Below, piece by piece: positions 19,020-39,266 of a DNA stretch of 64,000 nucleotides. Positions within the stretch are counted from its first letter, which is position 1. Every line of letters starts with the position of its first letter. The position numbers and the translations under genes were made by a program. This DNA comes from Rhodanobacter thiooxydans (GTDB lineage: Bacteria > Pseudomonadota > Gammaproteobacteria > Xanthomonadales > Rhodanobacteraceae), in the NCBI RefSeq assembly GCF_021545845.1, contig NZ_CP088923.1, forward strand, positions 1,054,001 through 1,118,000, in the 5' to 3' direction. The notes beneath the pieces are model-generated. The model was not told the DNA's origin. It made no database searches and worked only from the letters and a program-made list of their open reading frames with translations.

Positions 19020-21860
<2,841 letters not shown>

Positions 21861-21929
21861 GCAGGAATCATCGCAGTTTGCGCGCCTGTTGCATGGCTGG
21901 CGCCAGGGCTGGCATGGGCAGTCACCGGC

Positions 21930-22826
21930 TCATCGGCGGCGCCAGACCGGCGGCACGATCGAGCCGCGCCGCCGCGCCACGACCAGCAGGCCGGTCGTGC
22001 CCAAGGTACACAGCGCCAGTGCCACCACCGATGCCTCGGCACCGAACGCGCCGCCGGTAAGCCAGTCCGGGCCGCTGCGGGTGGAGACCAGCCAGCCGTC
22101 GGCCGCGGTGCCGGAAACCGGAATGCCGTAGATCGTGCCCTGGGCGAAATTCCATGCTGCATGCAGGCCCATGCACACCGGCAGCGAGCGGGTCACGTGG
22201 TAGACCATGCCGAACAGCAGACCGGCCTCGATCGCGATGGCCGCCGAACTCCACAGCGTGGCGCCGGGGTTGGCAGCGTGGATGGCGCCAAACAGCAGCG
22301 CGGAAATGCCCAGCGCCCACCAGGTGCCCAGGCCTTCCTCCACGATGCGGAACAGCACGCCGCGGAAGACGATCTCCTCGCCGATGCCCGCGCCCAGACC
22401 CACCACCAGCAACGCGCCCAACCATGGCGCATGCGGCTGGAACGCGCTCACGTGGTAGCTGCCGACCAGCCACAGCACGGCCACCACGGCGCTGAACAGC
22501 AGCAGCCCGCCCAGCGCCCCGAGCAGGCCCTGCGGCAACAGCGAGCGTGGCGCCAGCTCGATGAGCGCCCGGCGCTCGACCAGCTTCACCAGGATCAGGT
22601 AAGCCGCCAGCGGCACCAGCGCACGGGCGACGAACTGCGCCAGGTTCTGCTGCAGGATCGGCGTGCCCTGGCCCATGCCCAGCGCGAGGAAGCCGAACCG
22701 CAGCATCACCATGAGGCCGACCAGCCAGGCCACGAAGATCGCAATCCGCCCCGGCGGGGAAAGCAGCCAGCGCCGCTGGCGTGGCGCTCCGGGCGGCGTG
22801 GTGAAGGCGATGGCGTGGTCGTGCAT
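21930..22826 (-). CDS. CPBP-family intramembrane metalloprotease
   Basis: 298 residues with about eight membrane segments. The Abi/CPBP catalytic motifs are present: EEIVFRG (motif 1, Glu-Glu and Arg), the FGAIHAAN His motif and the later HAAWNF. Family members are Rce1-like proteases in the inner membrane; some process peptides or regulators, most have unknown targets. ATG 22826 has GGGGGAG six bases upstream and was preferred over a TTG at 22844. Located between prfC and the hybrid kinase with no evident functional link. Confidence 0.9.
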   Translation of the reverse strand: MHDHAIAFTTPPGAPRQRRWLLSPPGRIAIFVAWLVGLMVMLRFGFLALGMGQGTPILQQNLAQFVARALVPLAAYLILVKLVERRALIELAPRSLLPQGLLGALGGLLLFSAVVAVLWLVGSYHVSAFQPHAPWLGALLVVGLGAGIGEEIVFRGVLFRIVEEGLGTWWALGISALLFGAIHAANPGATLWSSAAIAIEAGLLFGMVYHVTRSLPVCMGLHAAWNFAQGTIYGIPVSGTAADGWLVSTRSGPDWLTGGAFGAEASVVALALCTLGTTGLLVVARRRGSIVPPVWRRR

Positions 22827-22878
22827 GCGTGGCTCCCCCGGCAAAGCCCCGCACGTTAGCAGTGCGGTGGCGTTGCGG

Positions 22879-24480
<1,602 letters not shown>

Positions 24481-24543
24481 GGGGAGTGGGTCGGCTTGAG
24501 CGCGAACCGGTAATTGTAGCGTGGATCAGGGGTGGCCCTTGCT

Positions 24544-24845
24544 GAAAGCAAGAGCTTTCGTGCGCCGTTGGCGCCCGAGTTACTTTCTCTTTGCGTGGCC
24601 AAAGAGAAAGTAACCAAAGAGAAAGGCCACCCCGCTTGGCGCTTGCCGGACATCCTGCCCGGCAAGTCCGTGAGGCGGGGCCGGACTTTTCGAACGGGCA
24701 TCCTGCCCGTGCGAAAAGGCGTTGCCATCCCTGGCAACGCCCGCTAGGCGGCCTGTCGTCCCCGCCTCACCGCCGCACAGGGGCCCCGGGTAGAGCAGCG
24801 CGCCATCCTGGCGCGCACTCGGTACGCCACCGCTGCGCGGTGGCG
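24544..24845. repeat. Train of hairpin-forming palindromes
   Basis: Between prfC and the cassette there is no credible gene; instead at least six hairpins follow one another. H1 24579-24614 has 15-base perfect arms (GTTACTTTCTCTTTG). H2 24642-24666 has CTTGCCGG arms. H3 24687-24717 has TTTTCG and ACGGGC arms. H4 24718-24741 is perfect (GGCGTTGCCA). H5 24798-24816 has GCGCGCCA arms. H6 24825-24845 has CGCCACCGC arms. A smaller GAAAGC/GCTTTC hairpin lies at 24544-24559. Four loops share an ATCC core. Similar runs are, to my knowledge, dispersed in xanthomonad genomes and are often misannotated as small proteins. Confidence 0.8.
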
Positions 24846-24925
24846 AAAGAGCCGGTTGCCAGAGTTCAGTTTCTTGAGTGCCATTCCCCGAGCGTGCGAA
24901 TGTCTCAGTTCGGCCAGAAGCGGAC

Positions 24926-24985
24926 GGTCAACACCAGAATTAAGCCGACCCGCGAAGCGGGTTCGGCCTGAACGACATGTTAGGC
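24926..24985 (-). other. attC-like integron recombination site (cassette 3' end)
   Basis: Read on the minus strand, a 60-base site runs from GCCTAAC (R'') to GTTGACC (R', imperfect against GTTRRRY). The central part folds as a hairpin: TTCAGGCCGA pairs with TCGGCTTAA around the stem ACCCGC-TTC-GCGGGT. It closely resembles the short attC of aadA-type cassettes as I remember it (TTCAAGCCGA...CGGCTTAATTC). The TAA inside GCCTAAC is the stop codon of the cassette gene, a common cassette arrangement. Confidence 0.8.
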
Positions 24986-25849
24986 GTCGCCTTTGGGTTC
25001 GCCGCCGATAGCGTGTTGAATCTGATTGAGCAGCATGTGCAGACCATTGTCCTCCCCCCACTGCCAATAAAGACGTGCTTGTTGCTCGATATTCCAGGAT
25101 ACGAACATCTGAAACTTGGCGATCTGTGGGAAGACGCGCTGCGCGGCCTGATATGAGGCGGTGTCCAGCTTGTTGAAGTAGTCCGGCCCCAGGTCTGGGC
25201 TATCGAAACTTCTCACGATCTCGCCAATGACGGTACACGCTGCGGCGAAATGCGCGAGGTCAATTATGTCCAGCGAGTAATCTTCCAGTGAAAGGTGCGC
25301 GGCAGCGCGGTTGGCGTGTTGAACTAGAAGTCCAATTCGCTTCTGGAGCTGACCGTCGGATCGAAGCAGTTCCGTTTCGCTTTTTGAGCACTCAGAGAAG
25401 AATCGACGCAGAAAACTTAGGGCCGTATAGCATTCTTCCATGCTGCGCGTAGAAATCTTTGCCCAGTACTCTGCGTGCTCAGTAAGAGTGACATCAGATG
25501 TTTTGGAAAAATTGGCGCCGGTGAGGTCTGGTTTTGAGGCGCTATCAAAGAGCTTTCGACAGCTAAGAGTCAGCGTGTTGAGATCCGAGAATGCGGAGTA
25601 GCTCTGAGCAACCTTGAACGGGTAATCGTTCGATTCTTTTGCGGCGTCATGTGCGGAAGCGGCGCCAAGGAAATAGTAGAAAGCTGGGACACAAAGAGAG
25701 GCGCGAGAAAATACGCCTCTTAGGAATTGGACGGAACGGCCAGTGCCCGCAAGTTTGAATGGCGGTCCTGTTCTTACCATTCTCTCCGAGCGGGCGAAGA
25801 GTTCGTCTTTTGCATCATCTTTGAAGGTGAGGACGATCTTCTTTGTCAT
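24980..25849 (-). CDS. Unknown gene carried in an integron-type cassette
   Basis: A 289-residue soluble protein with no signal peptide or membrane helix, mostly predicted helical. I do not recognise a family. A stretch with HANRAAAHLSLEDYSLDI followed by a hydrophobic helix (DLAHFAAACTVIGEIV) faintly recalls HEPN-type folds, but the spacing is not canonical and I would not name it so. Two sampled 60-base rows give 48% and 50% GC, far below neighbours, indicating transfer. Start: ATG 25849 lies 8 bases after an attC-like site; stop: TAA lies inside the next one. This gene-plus-site unit is exactly a gene cassette in structure. Confidence 0.8.
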   Translation of the reverse strand: MTKKIVLTFKDDAKDELFARSERMVRTGPPFKLAGTGRSVQFLRGVFSRASLCVPAFYYFLGAASAHDAAKESNDYPFKVAQSYSAFSDLNTLTLSCRKLFDSASKPDLTGANFSKTSDVTLTEHAEYWAKISTRSMEECYTALSFLRRFFSECSKSETELLRSDGQLQKRIGLLVQHANRAAAHLSLEDYSLDIIDLAHFAAACTVIGEIVRSFDSPDLGPDYFNKLDTASYQAAQRVFPQIAKFQMFVSWNIEQQARLYWQWGEDNGLHMLLNQIQHAIGGEPKGDA

Positions 25850-25857
25850 GGTGCGAC

Positions 25858-25914
25858 GCCTGACGCTGGAGTTAGGCGGCGGCGAAGCCGTCCGCCTTGA
25901 ACGAGTTGTTAGGC
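25858..25914 (-). other. attC-like integron recombination site (cassette 5' boundary)
   Basis: On the minus strand the 57-base site begins GCCTAACAAC and ends GCGTCAGGC, with R'' GCCTAAC and an R' differing at one position from GTTAGGC. The core folds through GTTCAAGGCGG / CCGCCTAAC around GGC-TTC-GCC. It would be the attC of the preceding cassette, but no gene precedes it: the 110 bases up to 26032 hold no convincing open frame and may be the remnant of a lost cassette. Confidence 0.78.
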
Positions 25915-26032
25915 AGGAGCCCCACACGCTTAGCAGCCGCAATGAAGTTTGCTCCAAAACCCGGGTCAGAGTGCACTTCTGAGCGGTTACTTCGGGAGGA
26001 GAACAGACGTTACAGCGGCTCGGCCATCTGCC

Positions 26033-26794
26033 TCACTTCGCCAACTGCACCAGCACCCGATGCCAGAACTCCAGCCCCGCCTCGACTTCCGACGCGGGCA
26101 GCTTTTCGTTGAGGCCGTGGGCGAAGGTGTCGTCGGGTTTGGTGAAGGCGGCGTCGATGCCGTAGCTGGGAACGCCGGCGTTGCGGAAGTACATGCTGTC
26201 GGAGGCGCCGGCGGACATGCCGGGCACCACGTCCACGCCGGGGTAGCGCTGGTGCACGGCGTCGGTGACGGCGGCGATTACGTCCTGGCGCAGCGGCGAG
26301 GCGGGGCTGGCCACCGGCGGAGGCTGTAGTACGGTCACGCTGGCGGACTGGTCGTCGATCACCTTGACCAGGGTGTCGCGCACGCTGTCGACCGGCGTGC
26401 CGGGGAAGATGCGGCAGTTGATGTTGACGCTGGCGCTTTGCGGCAGCGCGTTGAGCGCGTGGCCGCCGTTGAGCATGGTAGCCACGCAGGTGGTGCGGAT
26501 CTGCCCGACGTAGGCGGGGTCGGCCGAGATGGTGGCCGCGGCGGCGCCATCGTCGGGGTGGGCGGCGAACTGCGTCATCGCCGCACCGAGCGGTCCGGGC
26601 GTGTGCGCGCCGAGCGCACGCAGCGAGGCGCGCGTGATCTCGTTGCTCTGCGGCGGAAACTGGTAGCCGGCGACGCGGTCGATGATGCGCGCCAGGCGGT
26701 AGATCGCGTTGTCCGCGGTGGGCTCGCTGGAGTGGCCGCCAGGTGAGGTGAGGCTGATGCGAAAGTCCGCGTAGGTCTTCTCGGCGGCCTGGAT
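26033..26794 (-). pseudogene. M20 peptidase paralogue, 5'-truncated
   Basis: An uninterrupted frame of about 253 codons matches the C-terminal 254 residues of the intact M20 peptidase at 27700-29097, from IQAAEKTYADFRI to the final WHRVLVQLAK. It lacks a start at the right place and the whole N-terminal metal-binding half (HMD, ADM, DEE motifs). Residue differences are common in the first 70 codons (for example RVAGYQFPPQSNEI against RVGGYAFPPMINDI), so it is an old paralogue, not a fresh duplication. Similarity stops sharply at GCCTGGAT (about 26793), next to GGGGTCAGAGTCGAC, a motif I associate with mobile-element junctions. A short internal ATG at 26578 could still express 181 residues. 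Confidence 0.85.
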
Positions 26795-26835
26795 TTTAGG
26801 GCCAGGGGTCAGAGTCGACTTTTTAACAAGCCAAG

Positions 26836-27186
26836 CTACGCCGCCTGAATCACGAATTCGCTGGCCGTGGCGATGGGCTGCACGTTGCGCAGCGTGCGGC
26901 GCATCTCGACCAGGCCATACCGTTCCATCGTCTTGAGCGTCCGCGAAAGATTGCTGGGTGCGCGGCCGGTGAGTTCCGCGAGCTGGGTCAGTGACGCGGG
27001 CTTCTGTTCCCGGATGACACGCAGCAACGCGCGGTTGTCATCGGACAACACTTCGGCCAGCGAGCGCATGGAGGTGAACCAGACCTTCGGCTCGCCGGGG
27101 CGTGGCTGATGATCGCCGCGTGCAACGGCCAGTGCGCGGGCGCGGATGGCTTGCTGGGAGGCGATGCCGATGACCAGCTTTTTCAT
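26836..27186 (-). CDS. HTH antitoxin-like regulator (HVO_A0114-type)
   Basis: 116 residues with a winged helix-turn-helix in the second half: VWFTSMRSLAEVLSDDN, then TQLAELTGRAPSNLSRTLK and ERYGLVEM, the layout of HVO_A0114-family DNA-binding proteins that accompany TumE-like toxins. Its ATG overlaps the toxin's stop codon (ATGA at 27183-27186). Likely jobs are toxin neutralisation and autorepression at the operator ahead of the toxin gene; both are inferred from context. Confidence 0.82.
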   Translation of the reverse strand: MKKLVIGIASQQAIRARALAVARGDHQPRPGEPKVWFTSMRSLAEVLSDDNRALLRVIREQKPASLTQLAELTGRAPSNLSRTLKTMERYGLVEMRRTLRNVQPIATASEFVIQAA

Positions 27187-27548
27187 GACTTCGTTTCCTC
27201 AAGTACGCGGTCGACTTCGTTGAAGAAATCCTCCAGCAGTTGCTGTGGGCTGGCGAATTCGTACGGTACGCCCTTGTCGCTGACGTGACGATGGCGGTGG
27301 TCGTAGGCCAGACGCCGGCCTGCATGACGCTTGCGCTTCGGCGGCCTGACGGCATGCGCATTGTCGAAACCGAGTAACCGCGTGCCGTAGCGGTCATGCA
27401 ATGTCAGCGCGTAGCGTATGCCGTGCGGCACATGCTCGTTCACCTCGACACGCCATGCCTCGATCTTGATCCAGCAACCATTGCCCTGATCGTAGATCTC
27501 GCCGTTGAGCAACAGCAGCGTTTCCAGTCCTGCGTCTTCCTTTGACAT
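27183..27548 (-). CDS. TumE-like (DUF6516) putative toxin
   Basis: 121 residues ending in the DUF6516/TumE pattern: a beta-rich start (LLLLNGEIYDQGNGCWIKIE), then YDHRHRHVSDKGVPYEF and PQQLLEDFFNEVDRVL. Family members are paired with HTH proteins and are proposed toxins of type II systems; the activity is not well established. It is the first gene of the pair (toxin before antitoxin). GC is lower than in the flanking peptidase genes. A TATCAT palindrome and an AT-rich -10 sit within 25 bases of the start, with no Shine-Dalgarno, so the mRNA may be leaderless. Confidence 0.82.
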   Translation of the reverse strand: MSKEDAGLETLLLLNGEIYDQGNGCWIKIEAWRVEVNEHVPHGIRYALTLHDRYGTRLLGFDNAHAVRPPKRKRHAGRRLAYDHRHRHVSDKGVPYEFASPQQLLEDFFNEVDRVLEETKS

Positions 27549-27550
27549 GA

Positions 27551-27570
27551 CTATATATCATCCGATGATA
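27551..27570 (-). promoter_or_regulatory. Operator/promoter of the TumE-like pair
   Basis: Perfect inverted repeat TATCAT-CCG-ATGATA at 27556-27570 overlaps an AT-rich -10-like stretch (ATGATATATAG on the minus strand), just 3-22 bases before the toxin ATG at 27548. This is a fitting site for autorepression by the antitoxin. Confidence 0.6.
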
Positions 27571-27699
27571 AATTGAACGAATCCGGCCAATGCCTGTGGC
27601 GGCTGGTCGCACGCCGCACCACGAAAACGGAGTCGGGCTTAGCTGTTCCAACGTTTGTCCGAGATCATGGGCGGCGTGACGCCAGTTCTTCCGGTCAAC

Positions 27700-29097
27700 T
27701 CACTTCGCCAACTGCACCAGCACCCGATGCCAGAACTCCAGCCCGGCTTCGACTTCCGACGCGGGCAGTTTTTCGTTGAGGCCGTGGGCGAAGCTGTCGT
27801 CGGGTTTGGTGAAGGAGGCGTCGATGCCGTAGCTGGGGACGCCGGCGTTGCGGAAGTACATGCTGTCGGAGGCGCCGGCGGACATGCCGGGCACCACTTC
27901 CACGCCGGGGAAGCGGGCGTGCACGGCGTCGGTGACGGCGGCGATCACGTCCGGGCGCAGCGGCGAGGCGGGGCTGGCCACCGGCGGGGGCGACAGCACG
28001 GTGACGCTGGCGGATTTGTCGTCGATCACCTTGACCAGCGTGTCGCGCACGCTGTCGACCGGCGTGCCGGGGAAGATGCGGCAGTTGACGTTGACGCTGG
28101 CGCTTTGCGGCAATGCGTTGAGTGCGTGGCCGCCGTTGAGCATGGTCGCCACGCAGGTGGTGCGGATCTGCCCGACGTAGGCCGGATCGGCGGAGATGGT
28201 GGCGGCTGCGGCGGCGTCGTCCGGATGGGCGGCAAAGCGCGTCATCGCCGCGCCGAGTGCGCCGGGCGTGTGGGCGCCGGTGGCACGCAGCGAGGCTCGG
28301 GTGATGTCGTTGATCATCGGCGGAAAGGCATAACCGCCTACGCGGTCGATCACCTTGGCGAGGCGGTAGATCGCGTTGTCCGCGGTCGGTTCGCTGGAGT
28401 GGCCGCCGGGCGAGGTGAGGGTGATGCGGAAGTCCGCATAGGTCTTCTCGGCCGCCTGGATCTGGTAGACCACGGGCTTGCCGCTGGCCGGGTCCAGGGT
28501 GCCGCCGCCGGCATCGGCGTTGAGCAGGAATTCGGCGTCGTGGTAGCGCTTCGCCAGCTCGCGGGTCGAGGCCATCGCGGTCTCCTCGTCGCCGGACAGC
28601 AGCAGGATCAGGTCGTGGCGCGGCTTGAAACCCTCGCGTTTGAGCCGGATCAGCGTTTCCACCAGCACCACCACCGCAGTCTTCATGTCGGCGGTGCCGC
28701 GGCCGTAGAGGTAGCCGTTCTGCTCGATCAGGGTGAACGGGTCGCGGGTCCAGTCCTGGCGCTTGGCCGCCACCACGTCCATGTGCCCGGACAGCAGGAT
28801 CGGCTTGCCTTCACCGGTGCCGCGATAGCGCGCGACCAGTGCGGCGGTTTCGCCCACCGGGATGATCTCGATGTCGCCGGCGGCGAAGCCTGCGGCCTTG
28901 AGCTTGTCGGCGAGGTACGCGGCTAGCACCGGCACCTGATGCTGGTCCTCGACGGTAGGGATGCTGATGGCGTGTTTCAGCATGGCCATGGTCTCGGGCA
29001 ATGCTTCGGCAGCGCTGCCGGCATGCGCCGTGCCGATGCCGGTGCAGAAGACCAGCATGGCCGTGGCGGTGAGTCCGAGTGTGCGTGCTGATCCCAT
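27700..29097 (-). CDS. M20 family zinc metallopeptidase (exported)
   Basis: The product is 465 residues with a signal peptide (about 1-26, ending in GTAHA). Metal and catalytic motifs: LLSGHMDVV, GRGTADMKT, LLLSGDEETAM and DADAGGG in the first half, the lid/dimer domain with SPGGHSSEPT, and the last metal ligand in FAHGLNEKLP. It should be a periplasmic di-zinc amino- or carboxypeptidase-type hydrolase; the substrate is unknown. ATG 29097 gives the expected signal peptide, though its Shine-Dalgarno is poor. A truncated paralogue lies downstream on the same strand beyond the toxin-antitoxin pair. Confidence 0.92.
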   Translation of the reverse strand: MGSARTLGLTATAMLVFCTGIGTAHAGSAAEALPETMAMLKHAISIPTVEDQHQVPVLAAYLADKLKAAGFAAGDIEIIPVGETAALVARYRGTGEGKPILLSGHMDVVAAKRQDWTRDPFTLIEQNGYLYGRGTADMKTAVVVLVETLIRLKREGFKPRHDLILLLSGDEETAMASTRELAKRYHDAEFLLNADAGGGTLDPASGKPVVYQIQAAEKTYADFRITLTSPGGHSSEPTADNAIYRLAKVIDRVGGYAFPPMINDITRASLRATGAHTPGALGAAMTRFAAHPDDAAAAATISADPAYVGQIRTTCVATMLNGGHALNALPQSASVNVNCRIFPGTPVDSVRDTLVKVIDDKSASVTVLSPPPVASPASPLRPDVIAAVTDAVHARFPGVEVVPGMSAGASDSMYFRNAGVPSYGIDASFTKPDDSFAHGLNEKLPASEVEAGLEFWHRVLVQLAK

Positions 29098-29225
29098 GTG
29101 AGTTTGCCTGTGCAGGTCGTGAACGGAGCCCGAGTATGCGCGGCGGCTCCGCTGCCTGCACATGCCGGATTCGCCGCGTGGTCGTGTTAACCTTGCCGCC
29201 GCGCTGGCGGTGCTGCCGCCGGCGC

Positions 29226-29345
29226 GATACCCCTTGGGGAGTAGCCTGCCTCGTTCGCGCGGGGCGTCTTCGTCAACATGCTCGGCAGCAAGCTGCCGTG
29301 GCGAAGACACCGATCCTGGTTGGCGAGACCAACGGCTGACGGCGC
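29226..29345 (+). promoter_or_regulatory. yybP-ykoY manganese riboswitch
   Basis: The leader of mntP holds the conserved blocks of this class in order: TTGGGGAGTAGCC at 29235-29247, CGTCAACATGCTCGGC at 29271-29286, and a closing part with GCGAAGACACC, TGGTTGGCGAGACCAACG. This RNA binds Mn2+ and raises expression of manganese exporters. A further stem CACGACGG/CCGTCGTG (29346-29370) follows with no U-tract, so control is probably at translation. The remaining bases to 29402 hold the ribosome site region. Confidence 0.88.
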
Positions 29346-29402
29346 CACGACGGTCGGGCGCGCCGTCGTGCCGTTGCGCCTGGCCCGACCGAATGGCAAC
29401 CC

Positions 29403-29969
29403 ATGAATCCCGTTTCCATCCTGCTGCTCGGTTTCGCCATGTCCACCGACGCGTTCGCCGCGGCGATCGGCAAGGGCGCCGCCATGACGCGTCCGCGGCT
29501 GTCCCAGGCCATGCGCGCCGGCCTGATCTTCGGCGTGATCGAGGCGATCACGCCAGTGATCGGCTGGCTGCTGGGCAAGGGCGCCGCGCGCTATATCGAG
29601 GCCTGGGACCACTGGATCGCCTTCGGCCTGCTGCTGGTGCTGGGCCTGCACATGATCTGGGCCGGCGTGCAGCCGGATTCGGGCGAGCCGGTCGACGAGG
29701 CGAAGAAGCACGGCATCGTCGGCCTCGCCATCACCGGCCTGTCCACCAGCATCGACGCGCTGGCGGTGGGCGTGGGGCTGGCCTTCGTCGACGTCTCGAT
29801 CGCCATGGTGGCCGTGGTGATCGGCCTGTGCACGTTCAGCATGGTCACGCTGGGCATCATGCTCGGCCATGTGCTGAGCGCGATGGTCGGCCGCCGCGCA
29901 GAGATCATCGGCGGCGTTATCCTGATCGGGGTGGGCGCGGTGATCCTGTACGAGCATCTTTCCGTCTGA
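29403..29969 (+). CDS. mntP: Manganese efflux pump MntP
   Basis: 188 residues with six membrane segments in two related halves; each half carries a polar membrane motif ([15 protein letters not shown] and [14 protein letters not shown]) whose Asp residues are needed for transport in the family. It exports Mn2+ from the cytosol and prevents manganese toxicity. ATG 29403. A manganese riboswitch lies directly upstream, which confirms the assignment. A shared terminator follows. Confidence 0.97.
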
Positions 29970-29984
29970 CGGGTGCCCATGAAA

Positions 29985-30008
29985 AACCCGGGGATCGCTC
30001 CCCGGGTT
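29985..30008. terminator. Terminator between mntP and the TonB receptor
   Basis: Perfect ten-base stem AACCCGGGGA/TCCCCGGGTT with a TCGC loop; AAAAA precedes it, giving a U-tract for the minus-strand gene. It lies between convergent genes. Confidence 0.85.
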
Positions 30009-30036
30009 CTATGCTCCCGCCGTGTTGCGGGATGGC

Positions 30037-39063: not shown

Positions 39064-39178
39064 CACTCATCGAGACCGGCTGAGGGACAGGCCCTTTGAA
39101 GCCGGGGCAACCTGCGGAGCGCTTCCGCCACGGTGCCAACTCCTGCGGAGGTGCTGCGGCACCCACCGGAAGATGGGC
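39064..39178 (+). promoter_or_regulatory. SAM-I (S-box) riboswitch
   Basis: Class-specific blocks occur in order: CTCATCGAGACCGG, CTGAGGGACAGGCCC, TTTGAAGCCGGGGCAACC and CACGGTGCCAACTCC. P1 closes as CTCATC (39066-39071) with GATGGG (39172-39177), including one wobble pair. SAM binding should lower expression of the methionine genes downstream. The following 90 bases hold GC-rich complementarity (CGGCGGTCTGCCGCCG) that may form the switching stem. Confidence 0.9.
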
Positions 39179-39266
39179 GTCATCCGGCTCGCGGCGGTCT
39201 GCCGCCGAAACCGGGGCTGGCGACCTTTCCGGTACTTCGCAGGGCGATGCCGACCGGAGAAGTTCC

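Follow-up and report, generated by a model that had tools for sequence, protein, structure and literature searches.

In Xanthomonas, clusters of attC sites located away from an integrase gene (CALINs) are common, occurring in about half of genomes and partly at loci that are conserved between species, and both integrase loss and interspecies cassette transfer have been reported there, according to the part of that study available to us (PMC12444791). The accessible text on IntegronFinder 2.0 gives at least two attC sites as its default for calling a CALIN (PMC9024848). Integrases of the Rhodanobacteraceae have been named from environmental samples, as far as the consulted portion of one report goes (PMC9176274), and several aadA cassettes carry attC sites that have been assigned to Xanthomonadales, aadA11 not being among those noted in the available part of the source (PMC8352920). 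Our literature search, for which subscription papers were mostly out of reach, found none devoted to Rhodanobacter integrons among the papers listed. Here we describe a small CALIN that retains a single intact cassette, an element of a well-known kind, in a 64-kb stretch of the genome of a soil bacterium of the genus Rhodanobacter (the window, to which unprefixed positions refer). Like the CALINs described in the accessible part of the Xanthomonas study, it is an attC cluster away from the resident intI in a member of the same order; unlike them, it belongs to the genus Rhodanobacter, and a probable exchange tract around its cassette has been delimited (PMC12444791). The locus lies beside prfC, a flank that is not among the Xanthomonas loci named in the same available text (lamG, secF, recD, secD and others; PMC12444791). 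What is new here is that two further Rhodanobacter genomes, G158 and G188, bear attC arrays at this prfC flank as well, together with the delimited block of probable exchange around the cassette.

The two sites that bound the cassette lie on the minus strand. The upstream attC, which belongs to a preceding and mostly lost cassette, spans 57 bases at 25914-25858 (GCCTAACAACTCGTTCAAGGCGGACGGCTTCGCCGCCGCCTAACTCCAGCGTCAGGC), and the cassette's own, downstream attC spans 60 bases at 24985-24926 (GCCTAACATGTCGTTCAGGCCGAACCCGCTTCGCGGGTCGGCTTAATTCTGGTGTTGACC). At these positions the sequence-only reading had proposed two attC-like sites of 57-60 bases with GCCTAAC at one end and a near-GTTRRRY box at the other, and both are as it described them: the R'' box is GCCTAAC in each, without mismatch, and the R' boxes, GTCAGGC in the upstream attC and GTTGACC in the cassette's own, are each one letter off the R' consensus GTTRRRY. 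A covariance model (R1) was derived from an alignment (A1) of 18 attC sites, comprising two attC of the resident integron, 12 from other Rhodanobacter arrays and four from named plasmid records, with the window sites excluded from training. In A1, 94.4% of the cells agree with the named R and L stems, against at most 50% once the stems are slid by 1-3 columns. The covariance-model check that had been proposed for the two sites, run with this home-made model, gave 72.4 bits (E 1.2e-16) for the upstream attC and 42.7 bits (E 9.2e-9) for the cassette's own, both well above the third-ranked match in the 64-kb window at 15.2 bits. Since the upstream attC resembles an attC of the training set, model-free blastn evidence was used as well. 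Over 53 bases the upstream attC shares 96% identity with one of the attC sites in the resident integron (G000:C1:3966644-3971618), a likeness between the two loci, and it matched three plasmid records, one near an annotated integron integrase and one at dfrB2. The cassette's own attC had matches in 2,654 plasmid records (E≤1e-3), and closest among them was the attC of an aadA11 cassette, with 87.9% identity over 66 bases. In this it is like the aadA cassettes; unlike them, the window gene matches no resistance family and its R' box reads GTTGACC. In folding, the plus strand of the upstream attC forms the two-armed attC hairpin (z -3.1), and the central hairpin of the cassette's own attC folds, with the R stem absent from its minimum-energy fold.

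A rival view takes the boxes as chance inverted repeats around an ordinary low-GC gene. It can draw on the imperfect R' boxes and on the failure of simple pattern scans: a strict R''/R' scan of the whole genome found nothing and flagged neither window attC, strict R''...R' patterns found nothing on the stretch holding the resident array (L011) either, and an R/L-box scanner that recovered attC sites in arrays missed both window sites. The deviation of the R' boxes from the consensus accounts for these misses. The R1 E-values, the identity to a plasmid cassette attC and the cassette geometry leave this view almost no probability, and we regard it as refuted. At the level of sequence, then, the two sites are confirmed as attC sites.

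The geometry is that of a gene cassette, in which one gene precedes its attC. The ORF (24980..25849, minus strand; read 25849-24980) encodes 289 aa from an ATG start to a TAA stop, with 52% GC compared with 68% in the window. The start codon is eight bases from the upstream attC and the TAA falls inside the R'' box of the gene's own attC, all of which agrees with the earlier description of a 289-codon gene of about 50% GC, its stop in R'' and its start eight bases off. With the crossover point of integrons at G^TT, the cassette unit measures 932 bases between two such points (24932..25863, minus strand). Scanning for promoters yielded a single weak candidate, located within the cassette gene. 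The protein had no match in Pfam, NCBIfam or PADLOC at E≤1, resistance families included; the plasmid collection yielded nothing, and no solved structure was significantly similar (best E 0.18 with Foldseek and 0.54 by profile). It is predicted to be all-helical, of a family without known domain. HEPN / KNTase_C-type helical proteins, considered as a possible match, have the motif R-x(4-6)-H; it is absent from the cassette protein, the conserved pair of which is R181-x3-H185. Compared with the integron cassette protein Vpc_cass2 (PDB 3JRT), of 166 residues in the available part of its description, the protein is longer at 289 residues and has 9% identity, which is below the level trusted for helical matches (PMC3548836).

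Carriers of the gene amounted to three of 233 genomes of the taxonomic family, namely our genome, R. thiooxydans LCS2 (G191) and a genome of another genus with a 41% relative (G110); a protein search of 398 genomes of the order returned no further carrier. R1 found no attC match at the G110 locus (L014), so not every relative of the protein sits in a cassette. Among viral contigs there was one distant relative, at 43%, likewise with no attC match near it. Neighbouring strains carrying the gene without these boxes had been named as evidence that would speak against a cassette; LCS2, the sole other genome found with an identical gene, has the same sites.

No intI lies in the window, as the sequence-only reading had stated: none of the 11 TIGR02249 matches of the genome falls there, and tblastn of six Rhodanobacter IntI proteins against the window gave nothing at E≤0.1. 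A complete integron would have intI and attI beside its array, and blastn and tblastn found neither in the window. The whole-genome search for intI and further attC sites that had been suggested returned one integrase far off and 12 R1 matches. The integrase, the sole TIGR02249 match over the cut-off in the genome (G000:C1:3966726-3967637, 464 bits), belongs to a resident chromosomal integron at G000:C1:3966644-3971618, 2.89 Mb from the cassette along the contig, or some 1.1 Mb should the contig be circular. Unlike the window locus, the resident integron has intI, and its intI-attI-array region matches the window at attC only (blastn). Its intI (L010 18592-19689) changes reading frame near the C-terminus, the two parts aligning in different frames, and it has 52 extra bases relative to LCS2, whose integrase at that locus is a more distant variant at a contig end. 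In all 20 of the 20 integrase loci of relatives, the DNA alignment to the resident intI breaks off at the same position, give or take one base. Judged from its reading frame and the place of the catalytic tyrosine, the resident integrase is presumably inactive.

The 12 genome-wide matches come from a filtered R1 search of the 4.2-Mb genome at E≤1, and two of them are training members. Four form the array beside the resident integrase (the two training members and a weak site among them), two are the window sites, and six lie elsewhere: two form a pair at 246-248 kb, one stands alone at 2898 kb, another is at 3873 kb, and there are weak ones at 2306 kb (E 0.03) and 2880 kb (E 0.08). The 2898-kb attC adjoins a relic of attI and the 5' end of intI, with 78% identity over 233 bases. 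This locus (L074 3353-4216, 2.898 Mb) thus comprises a second attI relic, the first intI codons, a 188-aa gene and an attC.

With two attC sites, one intact cassette and no integron integrase nearby, the proposal of a stray cassette or decayed array is supported and the locus qualifies as a CALIN, the count of at least two attC sites being judged with our home-made R1 in place of IntegronFinder's model. Because there is an upstream attC, a preceding cassette must have existed and is now mostly gone. The stretch just before that attC (25915..25960, minus strand) is, by its position, probably the end of the lost cassette; two frames are open in its translations, and no relative of them was identified. 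Beyond it come a short sequence that recurs in similar form in other Rhodanobacter genomes (25955..25996) and a partial second copy (26033..26794, minus strand) of the M20 peptidase gene at 27700-29310. The partial copy occurs in LCS2 too. On the other side, prfC, encoding peptide chain release factor 3 (22879..24480, minus strand; NF001964, 890 bits), forms the insertion flank, and a dispersed Rhodanobacter sequence (24896..24926) adjoins the end of the cassette's own attC.

We ran R1 on the prfC loci of 29 relatives, extending up to about 1.5 kb beyond the prfC match. The flank carried attC sites in three of them, LCS2, G158 and G188, in the same orientation as in the window; the prfC site is thus common to three lineages and empty in most. 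In G158 the stretch from prfC to the M20 gene holds four attC matches, including a weak one (L148 3014-4497). In G188, 12 attC matches lie on one strand (L151 1594-5967), with one weak match on the other; this array begins some 100 bases from where the prfC homology stops, and no M20 gene was found within the 15 kb examined. Neither genome has an IntI over the cut-off, their partial matches reaching at most 77 bits; as a control, all 14 of 14 control genomes gave IntI-family matches at E≤0.001 and none exceeded the cut-off. Because two other lineages carry longer arrays at this flank, a decayed array explains the window locus somewhat better than a lone stray cassette.

We consider it likely that the attC sites and the one complete cassette are what is left of an eroded cassette array (a CALIN) between prfC and the M20 gene. 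The cassettes would have arrived in the past by integron-integrase recombination, as the attC anatomy suggests, and erosion would have left the attC of one lost cassette followed by one complete cassette. Counted against an array remnant are the attC-free spacers in relatives, the nameless preceding cassette, the weak R stem of the downstream attC and the scan misses. Among 12 other genomes with a complete prfC-to-M20 spacer, one (G158) has attC sites and 11 have none, close relatives G149 and G180 included, so a single ancestral array would have had to be lost several times.

These spacers also bear on another explanation, in which an integrase inserted one or two cassettes directly at a secondary, attG-like site and no older array existed. 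Loot et al. reportedly described cassette insertion at attG sites in 2024. On this view G158 and G188 would have acquired their arrays independently at a preferred spot, and the ends of prfC-side homology to the window indeed differ between them (24542 in G158, 24534 in G188), as such insertions would allow. The 11 attC-free spacers among the 12 complete ones fit this explanation, as does G192: its spacer lacks any attC match, and homology to it stops at window position 24923, leaving two bases before the R' box (24926). The abutting sequence also recurs in the genus: window 24842-24926 was matched in 20 of 45 genomes at E≤0.01, our own and LCS2 counted, and among the matches listed most cover only 24896-24926. 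At 22 loci with other copies of 24896-24926, R1 run without filters found no attC at E≤1; two of these loci, L097 and L082, have weak local similarity to aadA-type attC, a score reached by 0 and 1 of 200 shuffles, respectively. On the other hand, a second attC site implies that there was more than one cassette, and three lineages sharing one locus and one orientation would be improbable if target sites were genome-wide. Overall, we think direct insertion unlikely, at something like a one-in-four standing beside the eroded array.

The weak attC-like stretches beside copies of the dispersed sequence, at L082 1430-1493 (G184) and in L097 (G171), went unreported by R1, and the one in L082 folds no better than its shuffles. 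Eight plasmid records also weakly match 24896-24926, and R1 found no attC in the two of the eight that were scanned.

The cassette lies within a block that is almost the same in LCS2. Our genome and LCS2 differ at one position in the 8,683 bases of 21327-30009, cassette included, and LCS2 contig018 (NZ_AJXW01000018.1) is 100% identical over window positions 22000-25897. The surroundings of the block are about 93% identical: the whole window has 2,377 differences in 43,754 aligned bases, or about 7% divergence outside the block. In LCS2 the block is split between two contigs whose junction falls within the upstream attC (window 25896/25897), so its continuity at this point is inferred. Because a near-identical block stands against about 7% divergence outside it, the 8.7-kb block is probably a tract of recent interspecies exchange by homologous recombination. 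Comparison with nine other genomes gave no direction of donor versus recipient. More recently than the arrival of the cassettes, the locus with its cassette would thus have been exchanged with R. thiooxydans through homologous recombination of the flanking genes. Given the frame shift in the resident integrase and the off-consensus R' boxes of both sites, the cassette gene is probably no longer mobile on its own. The block suggests that a cassette without a usable integrase can still cross species, carried on a homologous tract. More tentatively, the prfC flank may be a conserved secondary home for cassettes, from which stranded cassettes keep spreading between species on recombination tracts, a reading that we hold to be possible rather than probable. 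If true, it would give integron cassettes a second way of travel.

Rhodanobacter is a genus rich in cassettes, as indicated by attC matches at E≤1e-5 in 43 of the 45 genomes searched; an IntI over the cut-off was present in 36 of 45 genomes of the genus. Very large cassette collections are possible, G163 and G155 having 113 and 101 attC matches. G172, G188 and G189, the last a fragmented draft, have 47, 56 and 58 attC matches and no IntI over the cut-off; G172 holds a short IntI fragment broken by stops (64 bits). Two cassette genes from separate loci, each in a different genome (L073 3328-3945 and L148 3469-4095), encode proteins of 205 and 208 aa that look alike by eye. Elsewhere in the window, a SAM riboswitch was found at 39064-39179 (RF00162, 80 bits).
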